NCBI GenBank assembly: GCA_024224155.1
Contig: JAAENP010000269.1
Span: 1 to 37,821, forward strand
Source of the DNA: a bacterium
GTDB lineage: Bacteria; Acidobacteriota; Thermoanaerobaculia; Multivoradales; JAHEKO01
DNA length: 37,821 bases
Direction: 5' to 3'
In this document: in pieces, positions 29,840 through 33,436 of the stretch
Numbering within the stretch: the stretch's first letter is position 1
Layout: the number at the start of each line of letters is the position of its first letter
Made by a program: the position numbers and the translations under genes
Notes under the pieces: model-generated
Told to the model about the DNA's origin: nothing
Databases searched by the model: none
Seen by the model: the letters and a program-made list of their open reading frames with translations, nothing else

Positions 29840-31795
29840 TCAGGAGTCGCCGTTCAGCTGCTCGAGTTTTCGCCGAACCGCTTCTTCGTTGTCGTCCGCC
29901 AGGGCCAGGGCCTTCTGATAGGACTCGGCAGCCAGGGTGCGCCGCCCCAGCGTGGCGTAGAGGTCTCCCAGGTGCTCGAAAACCACCGCATCCTCGCCCA
30001 CCAGCCGTGCCGCTTTCTCGAGGTGCCCTCTCGCCAATTCATAGTCGCCCATCTGATAGTAGACCCAGCCGAGAGAATCTATGTAAGCACCGTTGTTGGG
30101 CTCGAGAGCGACGGCCTTCTTCACCAGATCCACGGCTTCGGTGAGGTTCTCGCCGCGCTCGGCCCACATGTAGCCCAGGTAGTTCAACGCCGGTGCGAAC
30201 AACTCGTCCCGAGCCAGTAAATCGCGAAACTCCTGAATCGCCGTGTCTCTCCGACCGCTGCGTTCGTAGGCGCTGCCCAACCAGAACCGGACGTCCAGCG
30301 CCTCGGGATCCTCGTTCTTGGCGTCCAGCCACAGCGGAATCGCCTTCTCGTAGAGCTCCAGTCGATGCAGCGTCCGAGCGGCCAGGACCACTTGCTGGAT
30401 GTCGCCGGTCTCGGAAAGGCGCATCAGCTTCTTCTCGGCTGCCTCGGTCCTACCCGCCCGAAAAAGAGCTTCCGCCTCGCGCGCTCGCGCCCGATGACCG
30501 ACCTCGGCATCCGACCCCAACTTCTCGAAGAGATCGATCGCCTCCTCGGTGCGTCCCATCTCGAGCAGAGCCTGGCCTCGAACCAGCTTCAGATCACCCT
30601 CCGAGGGCAAGGCTGCCGAAGCCGAGAGCCTGTCGGTTATCTCGAGGACCCGCTCCCAGTTCCCTGCTCGGACTTCCAGGTCGACCAACTCGAGCCTCGT
30701 TCGCAATGCCTGGTCGGCCTGTCCGTCGGCCTCGAGGCTTTCAGCGGCCCTCGAGAGAATCTCGGCGGCTTGCGCCGCCCTCCCTTGCCGCTCCACGACC
30801 TCTGCCAGCACGCGCGCAACGTCGAAAGACCTCTCGTCGGCTTCGTAGAGGACACGCAGGCCGGCCTCGGCTTCGACGAACCGGGCCAGGGCCGACAGGG
30901 CCAGGGCATTCAAATAAACAGCTGGCGGCTCGCCCGGGGCGACCTCGAGCCACCTTTCGCTGGCTTCGAGCGACTTCTGCCAGGCCCCCACCCGATAGAG
31001 CTCCAGCGCCAGGAGTCGAAGCACCTCGAGGCTGTCGCGCTGAGCGTCGGCCCCGCCCTCGAGTACCGCCACGGAATCGGCGTGACGCTGCTGTTCGGCC
31101 AGAAGATTGGCCAGCGTCAGGCGCGCATCCAGGAACTCGGGGTACCGCGCAAGCAACTCGCGCAGTCCTTTCTCGGCTTCGGCCCGATTCTCCGAGCGTT
31201 GATAGGCGGTCATCAGAATCGAGGCCAGGCGCAGGTCCCCGGGTCTGAGCTCGTAGGCCTCACGCAACGCCGAAACCGCCTCGTCGAAGCGACCCAGGTT
31301 GATCAGGAGGCGGCCAGAGTTGACCCTCGATTCGACATCTTCGGGGAGGAGCTGTCTCAACTCCTCAAAAAGGCGGATAGCGTTCTCGAGCGCTTCGGGC
31401 GACTTGTCGGCCTGGCGCAGCTCGATCCTCGCCAGCAAGCGCAACGCCTCCGGGTTCTCAGGGCCCAGTCCCCGTGCCGCGGATGCCTGTTGTGACGCCG
31501 CATCCAGCTCCCCGAGCTGATAGAGAAACTCGGCGAACGAGAGTCTCAAGTACGGTTCCGACGGCTCCGCTGCCACGGCGCGTTCGAACGCTTCGCGCGC
31601 TCCCTTGTAGTCCGCTTCGTGACGAAGGGCCTGCGCGAGGGCGAACAGATAACGCGCCTCCTCGGTCGCCACAGAGGACTCGGTAGTCTCGTCCGACGTC
31701 ACGCCGGCTCGCTCCTGCGCCATCGCCGAGGTCGCCACCAAGAGCACCATGAGCGCCGCGCTCGATCTCAGCCAGTTCCGGGGAATAACGCGCAT
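29840..31795 (-). CDS. Exported tetratricopeptide-repeat protein
   Basis: This protein of about 651 residues has a signal peptide (basic start, hydrophobic LMVLLVA, cleavage probably at AMA-QE) followed by roughly fifteen TPR or TPR-like helical pairs, for example GAREAFERAVAAEPSEPYLR, RFDEAVSALREAYELRPGDL and YELARGHLEKAARLVGEDA. TPR arrays are protein-binding scaffolds; this one would act in the periplasm or at the outer membrane. It is paired with the LolB-like gene, as in Pseudomonas. The frame is open to 32086, but that is antisense to the next gene. ATG 31795 is chosen; GTG 31804, with AAAGGA upstream, is an alternative. The partner protein is unknown. Confidence 0.85.
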   Translation of the reverse strand: MRVIPRNWLRSSAALMVLLVATSAMAQERAGVTSDETTESSVATEEARYLFALAQALRHEADYKGAREAFERAVAAEPSEPYLRLSFAEFLYQLGELDAASQQASAARGLGPENPEALRLLARIELRQADKSPEALENAIRLFEELRQLLPEDVESRVNSGRLLINLGRFDEAVSALREAYELRPGDLRLASILMTAYQRSENRAEAEKGLRELLARYPEFLDARLTLANLLAEQQRHADSVAVLEGGADAQRDSLEVLRLLALELYRVGAWQKSLEASERWLEVAPGEPPAVYLNALALSALARFVEAEAGLRVLYEADERSFDVARVLAEVVERQGRAAQAAEILSRAAESLEADGQADQALRTRLELVDLEVRAGNWERVLEITDRLSASAALPSEGDLKLVRGQALLEMGRTEEAIDLFEKLGSDAEVGHRARAREAEALFRAGRTEAAEKKLMRLSETGDIQQVVLAARTLHRLELYEKAIPLWLDAKNEDPEALDVRFWLGSAYERSGRRDTAIQEFRDLLARDELFAPALNYLGYMWAERGENLTEAVDLVKKAVALEPNNGAYIDSLGWVYYQMGDYELARGHLEKAARLVGEDAVVFEHLGDLYATLGRRTLAAESYQKALALADDNEEAVRRKLEQLNGDS

Positions 31796-31825
31796 CGGCG
31801 GCACAATACCAATCGTTCCTTTTTC

Positions 31826-31854
31826 TTTACAACCGAATGCGCCGTTCCTATAAT
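31826..31854 (+). promoter_or_regulatory. Near-consensus sigma70 promoter
   Basis: TTTACA (31826-31831) and a perfect TATAAT (31849-31854) are exactly 17 bases apart, directing transcription toward the gene at 31910 with a leader of about 50 bases. On the other strand TTGTAA (31832-31827) overlaps the same -35 region and could serve the divergent TPR gene, with a weaker TATTGT 18 bases on. Confidence 0.75.
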
Positions 31855-31909
31855 TCCGTAGCGACTGGTAACCCCTGAAAACACTGGGCTTAATCGAGTA
31901 AGTTTGTAG

Positions 31910-33118
31910 ATGCCCAAAACGGAACTCGGCGCCCTGTTGATTTCCCGGGGCTTGCTCACCGAGAGACAGCTGGACAGGGCCCTCGAACGGCAGCGCAACT
32001 TCGGGGGTCGACTCGGCACATGTCTGCTCGAAATCGGGGCGCTCGGAGAAGAAGACCTGCTCGCGGTGCTGTCCGAACAGCTCCACGCGCCAACAGCCAC
32101 CAGGGAGGATCTGCAGGACCTGTCGCCCGAGATGATCGGACTCCTGCCCAGATCGACTGCACTGAACTGTTCTGCGATACCGTTTCGGTACTCAACGGGA
32201 CGCATCGACGTGGCGCTGGTCGATGCCGGTGACCTCGCTCTGGAAGACGAGCTCTCATTTTCGATGGGTCAGCGGATCCGGCCACACATTGCCAGCGAGC
32301 TGAGAATCGTCGACGCGCTGCACCGCTACTACGGCAGCGACATTCCGCTGCGGTTCCGGAGCCTTCTCGAGACCGCCGATAGCCGGCAGGACTCCCCCGC
32401 TGGGGCCGCCAACGGTCCCGCTCTCAGCCCGGTCCCAGCCTACCTCCGGCCCGGCGCGCCGAACAGCCCCTCCTCCGTGTCACGAAGACGGGTGTTCTCT
32501 CCTCCGAAGTTCGATCGGCAGGCCATTCCCCTAACTCCCGAGGAGCGCGCCGCCCTCGAGGCCAGCCGGGGACCGATGCCGGAGCTGAGAACCTCGGCGG
32601 AGGCCGTCGCTCCCACCGAAGGCACCGATCACGAGCTGTACGGCCAGAGGTTGAGCGATGCGGAAACGGCGTCCCAGATCGGTGCGGCTCTGATCCAGGT
32701 TCTCGCCGGGCAGTTTCCGAGGGTGCTCCTGTTCAGAGTGTCTTCGGGTCACGAAGAGGTGACCGGATGGATGAGTCACGGTTCCGACTTGAACCTCGAC
32801 TGGTTCCGCCACTACTCGGTGGGGCTACATCACGCTACGGTGTTTCGGACCTTGTCAAAAGGTGCCGCCCTGTTTACGGGCCGGCTGGAATCGACGCCCG
32901 CCCACAAAGCGCTGGCGCGCTGCTGGGGCGGCTCCCTCGAGCGCGAGTGCTTGCTGCTACGGGTAGCCATCCGGGGCAAGCTCGTCTGCGCGGCCTACGT
33001 CGATCGGGGCGATGCCGGTCTCTCCGACATCGACCTGGATTTCCTGAAAAAGCTGGGCTCCATGACGGCTCTTGCCTTCGAGCGATGCATCTTGAGACGC
33101 AAACTGCAAACAACCTGA
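31910..33118 (+). CDS. MshEN-domain protein with a GAF-like C-terminus
   Basis: This 402-residue soluble protein begins with an MshEN domain. Two 24-residue motifs of the form (R/K)LG-x2-L-x3-G-x6-L-x3-L-x2-Q occur at 5-28 and 34-57, separated by exactly five residues as in the c-di-GMP-binding MshE N-domain; only the first position of motif one deviates (E5). A Pro/Ser-rich linker follows (about 150-240). Residues about 243-398 alternate strands and helices like a GAF domain (IGAALIQVLAGQF, VLLFRVSSG, LKKLGSMTALAFERC). There is no secretion ATPase domain, so it is not a GspE or PilB enzyme. It probably senses c-di-GMP; its output is unknown. A strong promoter lies upstream. Confidence 0.8.
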   Translation: MPKTELGALLISRGLLTERQLDRALERQRNFGGRLGTCLLEIGALGEEDLLAVLSEQLHAPTATREDLQDLSPEMIGLLPRSTALNCSAIPFRYSTGRIDVALVDAGDLALEDELSFSMGQRIRPHIASELRIVDALHRYYGSDIPLRFRSLLETADSRQDSPAGAANGPALSPVPAYLRPGAPNSPSSVSRRRVFSPPKFDRQAIPLTPEERAALEASRGPMPELRTSAEAVAPTEGTDHELYGQRLSDAETASQIGAALIQVLAGQFPRVLLFRVSSGHEEVTGWMSHGSDLNLDWFRHYSVGLHHATVFRTLSKGAALFTGRLESTPAHKALARCWGGSLERECLLLRVAIRGKLVCAAYVDRGDAGLSDIDLDFLKKLGSMTALAFERCILRRKLQTT

Positions 33119-33125
33119 AACTTCG

Positions 33126-33155
33126 TTGACACTTCGTCGAGTGCGCTGCTACATT
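33126..33155 (+). promoter_or_regulatory. Promoter of the HU-like gene
   Basis: A perfect TTGACA (33126-33131) and TACATT (33150-33155) are separated by 18 bases. The predicted transcription start falls only about 8 bases before the ATG at 33170, so the transcript would be nearly leaderless. Confidence 0.55.
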
Positions 33156-33169
33156 GGGCGCCCTCCAAA

Positions 33170-33436
33170 ATGATCAAGAACGACCTCGTCACTCGCGTTG
33201 CCGAAACCTCCGACGTCTCTCGGGTCAAGGCGGCACTCGCCGTAGACACGATCCTGAACGCTATGAAGCTTGCGCTGCGCCAGGGCAAGCGCATCGAGTT
33301 GCGAGGATTCGGGGTCTTTCAGGTACGGGACCGCAAGCGTGGCATCGGTCGGAACCCGAAGACGGGCGTCGAGGTGGCGATAGCCCCCGGCAAGACTGTC
33401 CGCTTCAAGCCGGGCAAAGAGCTCCGCGGGATCTAG
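33170..33436 (+). CDS. HU/IHF-family DNA-binding protein
   Basis: This 88-residue protein has the HU fold: [12 protein letters not shown] helix, an [16 protein letters not shown] saddle, the arm [10 protein letters not shown] and a closing [17 protein letters not shown] and IHF dimers bend DNA and organise the nucleoid. The arm carries the conserved R-N-P-K-T-G segment; HU and IHF subtypes cannot be separated by eye, though IHF-like variants are common in this position. The start has no ribosome binding site, in line with the short leader predicted from its promoter. The protease gene begins 14 bases after its stop. Confidence 0.95.

Follow-up and report, generated by a model that had tools for sequence, protein, structure and literature searches.

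Domain architecture of the MshEN-GAF protein

MshEN domains are known mostly as sensors of secretion and pilus motors, which raises the question of what such a domain does in a protein that has no motor. A protein of this kind, 402 aa long, is encoded in the window (the whole stretch of 37,821 nucleotides that was analysed, from a 5.7-Mb genome) at 31910..33118 on the plus strand, between an ATG start and a TGA stop, as supported by its orthologues and their alignment (A1). The start codon is kept in two same-genus relatives (MAGs), which were the sole matches of the contig scan. Residues 69-144 (32114..32341, +) are the MshEN C-subdomain by their match to PF05157, which Pfam placed in the protein at 6e-14 and 52.2 bits against a cut-off of 23.1 and detected in 30/30 orthologues. 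Residues 6-57 match the NCBIfam c-di-GMP_motif profile NF053729 above its cut-off (4.2e-15), as do 30/30 orthologues. Solved MshEN domains found to be similar by phmmer were those of Thermus PilF (6f8l, 1.1e-27), type IVa PilB (3jc8, 3.3e-17) and MshE (5htl, 2.7e-13). No T2SSE or other ATPase domain was detected in the 402 aa by Pfam at E values up to 1, where the only matches were MshEN and a sub-threshold DUF4388 (PF14332), whose 12.7 bits against a curated cut-off of 25 leave the protein outside that family. By eye, no signal peptide was seen at the N-terminus. The same genome encodes a separate PilB, above its family cut-off, and among its other three MshEN proteins the c-di-GMP motif is found at 1e-10 in PilB only. 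The MshEN/GSPII domains of the PilB, MshE and PilF ATPases have the same tandem 24-residue motifs, 5-residue spacer and MshEN_C, and most of the same contact positions (PMC5013675), whereas the MshEN-GAF protein lacks the ATPase, starts motif I with Glu and continues into a linker and a GAF domain.

The linker, residues 147-242 (~96 residues; 32348..32635, +), appears Pro/Ser/Ala-rich by eye and is variable: across 30 sequences, the stretch from alignment position 148 to position 240 spans 80-202 residues. It is followed at residues 243-402 (32636..33115, +) by a domain assigned to GAF from orthologue profiles, an AF2 model and a structure search. Pfam over 30 orthologues detected GAF_2 in 7/30 (best 1.4e-5) and GAF in 7/30 (best 0.0018), with the window protein itself unmatched, and, when PDB sequences were searched with a profile of this domain, 3oov alone was returned (E 0.89). 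Full-length AF2 modelling from three sequences gave a pLDDT of 41.7, too low for use; a model of residues 240-402, likewise built from three sequences, was of moderate confidence (mean pLDDT 63.7, pTM 0.64). Structure prediction of the C-terminal part had been proposed as a check in the initial annotation, and the best PDB matches of the 240-402 model are indeed GAF domains, with 5w10 as the best Foldseek match (E 5.5e-5); comparison of the model with a GAF domain gave VIA Z 12.9, rmsd 3.7 Å and 146 aligned. The predicted C-terminal domain thus matches a GAF fold. Residues R271, W287, G324 and H332 in this domain are invariant or nearly so among the orthologues. With no ATPase recognised by Pfam and a GAF fold indicated by both the model and the orthologue profiles, the earlier proposal that a linker and a GAF-like domain take the place of the ATPase is borne out.

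Tandem motifs and ligand-contact positions

Motif I comprises residues 5-28 (ELGALLISRGLLTERQLDRALERQ; 31922..31993, +) and motif II residues 34-57 (RLGTCLLEIGALGEEDLLAVLSEQ; 32009..32080, +), with residues 29-33 as the spacer between them, so that the spacing of two 24-residue motifs and a 5-residue spacer is exact. A relaxed tandem search, in which motif I position 1 was left free and spacers of 4-8 were allowed, matched the window protein and 0/200,000 shuffles of its sequence, which rules out a chance origin of the tandem motif. Motif I starts with E-L-G and, having Glu rather than Arg at position 1, fails the R consensus, the relaxed [RKPN] form and the extended R/K/L form. Motif II has R at position 1 and conforms to the relaxed form, although its position 11 is Ala and not the L/V/I of the strict form. 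The other contact positions (L2, G3, L17, L21 and Q24) are all present in both motifs of the window protein. Of the initial description of both motifs with an exact spacer, the 24-mers and the spacing therefore stand, and the first residue of motif I, which is not Arg, Lys or Leu, does not.

Across the 30 orthologues, motif I retains Gly3 and Gln24 in every sequence and Leu2 in 29/30, and motif II retains Gly3 and Leu17 in every sequence, Arg/Lys1 in 29/30 and Gln24 in 28/30. Position 1 is R/K/L in all 30 for motif II; for motif I it is R/K in 13 and another residue in 17, with Glu in 3/3 sequences from the window's genus, g1. For motif I, none of the 30 sequences has the strict form and 10 have the relaxed published form; for motif II these counts are 2 and 15, and the turn Gly (position 10) of motif II, present in the window protein, is kept in only 15/30. 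Mutation of the motif across the family, named earlier as an outcome that would speak against a receptor, is thus seen at motif I position 1, whereas most other contact positions are conserved. Wang et al. 2016 gave position 1 as R and, in the relaxed form, as R, K, P or N (PMC5013675); later work widened it to R/K/L and reported 6 nM binding with K and L in GSPII-B (PMC11731258). Alteration of Arg9 in MshE cost at most about fivefold in binding (PMC5013675), and in PilF GSPII-A constructs binding depended on the Arg that opens motif II (PMC12002112). With Glu as its first residue, motif I may bind c-di-GMP less tightly. Judged from its residues, binding of c-di-GMP by the MshEN-GAF protein is likely, not certain, and the suggestion of a c-di-GMP receptor with a protein-binding output is plausible, with the contact residues mostly conserved.

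Genomic locus and promoters

The gene lies between a divergent TPR-repeat gene (29843..31795, −) and a gene for an HU-family DNA-binding protein (33170..33436, +), both of them conserved neighbours. In 40 compared neighbourhoods (29 belonging to the sequences of alignment A1, plus 11 further relatives), TPR is present in 38/40 and HU in 36/40. The exceptions are two loci of family f2 (L067 and L073) that have neither gene, one whose contig stops at the gene (L076) and one without HU in the remaining 0.5 kb (L042). Counting the window, HU is downstream in 37/41 in-order loci, at a distance of 37-248 nt in the 36 measured, and it has a promoter-like site of its own (≥9/12) in 23/41; in the window this is TTGACA-18-TACATT (33126..33155, +), in the gap between the two genes. 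The position of the MshEN-GAF gene between divergent TPR and HU is mostly fixed. HU is also present in 3/3 loci fetched from the same class outside the order (L118, L120 and L123), and one of these (L118:8231-11340) has two MshEN-GAF genes, one on each side of HU. In 7/13 outside-order loci, which belong to other classes (L117, L119, L121, L122, L125, L126 and L127), the gene is directly 3' of pnp in an infB-truB-rpsO-pnp cluster, the genes being named by Pfam in L119 and by BLAST to L119 in the other loci; three of these relatives (L119, L125 and L126) have an eroded motif II. The neighbours identified are housekeeping genes and none are pil genes. The check proposed initially, a search for conserved neighbours or type IV pilus links, gives TPR and HU as conserved neighbours, with indirect support for pili from a joint absence described below.

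Upstream of the gene, a TTTACA-17-TATAAT promoter (31826..31854, +) agrees with the consensus at 11/12 positions. It is the single match of this pattern in the 5.7-Mb genome, compared with 0 for a reversed-pattern control, and the same promoter or a near variant (a spacer of 17/18, or one base changed) recurs in 27/41 loci, the window included. This promoter, noted earlier as near-perfect, is real and conserved. The closest relative (L038) retains CTTTACAA and lacks the −10 and the downstream element. On the opposite strand, a TPR promoter, TTGTAA-18-TATTGT with a TG extension (31803..31832, −), has its −35 bases in common with the MshEN-GAF promoter. A minus-strand TTGTAA, shifted by one base relative to the −35 hexamer of MshEN-GAF and paired with a −10 at a distance of 16-18 bases towards TPR, occurs in 17/27 promoter-bearing loci, whereas shuffling of the upstream flank gave a mean of 1.5 loci and reached 17 in 0/1,000 rounds, which indicates that TPR and MshEN-GAF have back-to-back promoters with a common −35. 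The divergent TPR protein had been named as a possible partner. As its product starts like a Sec-exported protein, with an apparent signal peptide (by eye) of the kind not seen on MshEN-GAF, it is probably exported and is unlikely as a direct partner; common to the two genes is the overlapping divergent promoter.

Beyond the −10, at a distance of 13-15 nt, lies a conserved bipartite element, TAA-N18/19-TTA (31869..31892, +), which is found at this distance in 26/27 promoter-bearing loci. An RNA stem or strict palindrome was rejected for this element, as complementarity outside TAA/TTA did not exceed that of shuffled columns (smallest p 0.097).

Distribution of the family and of its GAF domain

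In 59 genomes (the source genome and its relatives, tallied by hand), a full-length frame over both halves is present in 43. Six others (G014, G024, G047, G051, G052 and G055) have only fragments, seen at contig ends, on split contigs or with a stop, and the remaining 10, all of which belong to genus g11, have no match. In family f6, some genomes encode an additional copy at another site. Outside the order, a hand count of a phylum sample gave a full-length match in at least 27/281 genomes. MshEN-GAF is thus an order-wide Acidobacteriota family and not an oddity.

Relatives were detected throughout the order with a profile (A2) built from the GAF domain. In the source genome, a single-sequence search with this domain returned the query alone, whereas the profile located four more places. 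We assigned architectures by Pfam to 27 GAF-type proteins chosen, non-randomly, from the match lists (7 + 20): 13 have DUF4388, 6 MshEN (one of them, L113, below the Pfam cut-off), 2 PilZ and 6 none of these. NF053729 is matched at 0.001 or better by 19/27, presumably the 13 DUF4388 and the 6 MshEN proteins. The two PilZ proteins with the same GAF type (L108:1591-2493, −; L109:1437-2444, −) match PF07238 above its cut-off. DUF4388-type proteins with this GAF type are also encoded in the source genome (L129, L130 and L131, on C13, C198 and C50); L129 matches NF053729 at 2.2e-12, and L130 and L131 have a similar tandem motif by eye. These DUF4388-GAF proteins (L129 and L130) resemble MshEN-GAF in GAF type and, for L129, in the c-di-GMP motif profile, and differ from it in having DUF4388 in place of MshEN_C and in lying at other loci. 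No literature linking DUF4388 with c-di-GMP was found. The occurrence of one GAF type behind MshEN, PilZ and DUF4388 suggests a shared output of c-di-GMP receptors, and the Acidobacteriota MshEN-GAF protein accordingly has the look of a self-contained signalling adaptor. The protein had been called an orphan, which holds in that the motor is missing; it is also one of several receptor-GAF fusions.

Absence from genus g11

Order-wide searches covered 72 genomes, 21 of them from g11. Within g11, MshEN-GAF is matched in 0/10 genomes of the 59-genome set, and the A2 profile gives no match in 19/21 and weak 54-position matches in 2/21; outside this genus, one genome (G055) is also without a GAF profile match. 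All 21 g11 genomes encode one GGDEF protein each, compared with 4-30 in the other 51, and PilT is above its cut-off in 51/72, the 21 genomes without it being those of g11, as read from the table. Genome size in g11 remains 3.7-5.3 Mb despite the reduction in GGDEF and PilT. Each g11 genome has one MshEN protein, and in the one genome examined (G027) this protein is GspE/PilB-like and without the c-di-GMP motif at 1e-10. In 4/4 g11 loci checked, PRPP synthase, LolB-like, TPR, HU, DTD, SSB and MutS genes are kept, and there is no MshEN-GAF match; the aligned ends of TPR and HU lie 242-316 nt apart. Two sister genera of the same family (G048 and G352) retain the gene next to HU, and a third genus of that family has an MshEN-GAF protein (G341); their GGDEF counts are 18, 23 and 30, respectively. 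The joint absence of MshEN-GAF, PilT and nearly all GGDEF proteins suggests a link to pili and c-di-GMP. As g11 is one genus, this may reflect a single event, and as both were lost together, the loss of c-di-GMP signalling and that of pili are inseparable there.

Function and alternative explanations

The reading that we favour, with about even confidence, is that the MshEN-GAF protein is a cytosolic c-di-GMP receptor or adaptor whose GAF domain serves as the protein-interaction output and whose target is probably the type IV pilus. From the sequence, a role as c-di-GMP receptor appears quite probable; the type IV pilus as target, taken strictly, is a possibility we rate somewhat below even. 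Binding of one c-di-GMP by the four-helix MshEN_N bundle, as the conserved ligand-contact residues suggest, may shift the seating of MshEN_N on MshEN_C, and this shift could be relayed via the flexible linker to the C-terminal GAF domain, which would act as a module for protein interaction or dimerisation. As target, the machinery of the type IV pilus or the placement of that machinery seems likeliest, and MshEN-GAF would then let c-di-GMP act on pili by a route other than the sensor within PilB. Other Acidobacteriota families (for example f10) have N-terminal matches in ATPase-sized frames only and no full-length MshEN-GAF; such ATPases therefore exist without it, which counts against this reading, as does the housekeeping character of the neighbours identified. 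A wider proposal, which we advance only tentatively, is that Acidobacteriota use the GAF domain as an output module behind MshEN, DUF4388 with an MshEN motif, and PilZ. MshEN-GAF might then be an ancient, order-wide core member of this set that works alongside PilB as a further point of c-di-GMP control over type IV pili and is retained only in genomes with both pili and a c-di-GMP network.

The locus itself could point to another target, with a c-di-GMP receptor whose GAF domain signals to the nucleoid or RNA machinery rather than to pili, as HU is the downstream neighbour in nearly all in-order loci and in the three same-class loci outside the order, and pnp, encoding PNPase, adjoins the gene in 7/13 outside-order loci. 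However, the promoter-like site of HU in 23/41 loci means that one transcript is not required, the HU and pnp loci are unlike each other, which would be expected if the gene is simply lodged among stably kept housekeeping genes, g11 retains the HU locus without MshEN-GAF, and family f2 has the gene away from HU. We regard a nucleoid or RNA target as rather unlikely. At the other end of the protein, the Glu shared by all three g1 sequences, the 17/30 orthologues without R/K at this position and the loss of motif II residues in some outside-order relatives would fit an MshEN that, in the window's genus, no longer binds c-di-GMP and serves as a structural docking domain, with the GAF domain, given its (nearly) invariant R271, W287, G324 and H332, as the real sensor of another small ligand. 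Such a dead site would not be expected to hold its other contact positions, as the window protein does and the order largely does. The absence of the gene also coincides with the GGDEF collapse, and at position 1 K and L allow tight binding (PMC11731258), so that we think this improbable as well. Decay of a PilB/GspE-type ATPase into a remnant without motor domain or independent function would explain why the MshEN part is plainly PilB-related, but it is contradicted by full-length conservation across the order, the mostly fixed locus, the conserved promoter and the separate PilB, and we consider it highly improbable.

Relation to known systems

MshEN has been found fused to REC, HD-GYP, CheA, CheX, cyclase and kinase domains (PMC5013675), and these fusions, like MshEN-GAF, place an MshEN input outside secretion motors. 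MshEN on non-motor domains is thus already known; a GAF output has 0 occurrences in the main text of that founding paper. In literature on MshEN, GAF, PilZ and Acidobacteriota pili, covered mostly at the level of titles, we found no title describing an MshEN-GAF protein, and titles on Acidobacteriota c-di-GMP effectors were few. A motor-free MshEN with a GAF output, at one locus across most of an order, would represent a testable effector family in this phylum. If the MshEN-GAF protein acts on pili as we favour, it would have functional analogues in separate adaptors that feed a pilus motor, although their domains differ: c-di-GMP acts on PilB/MshE directly or via FimX-PilZ (PMC11580455), and the PATAN regulator PixE has been hypothesised to bind PilB1 (PMC7690835). 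In its layout it resembles the published description of SopA of Myxococcus xanthus, a cytoplasmic protein of 405 aa with two conserved domains and an unstructured joiner that is needed for polar localisation of PilB, and whose domains, according to its authors, have no similarity to characterised ones (PMC11580455).
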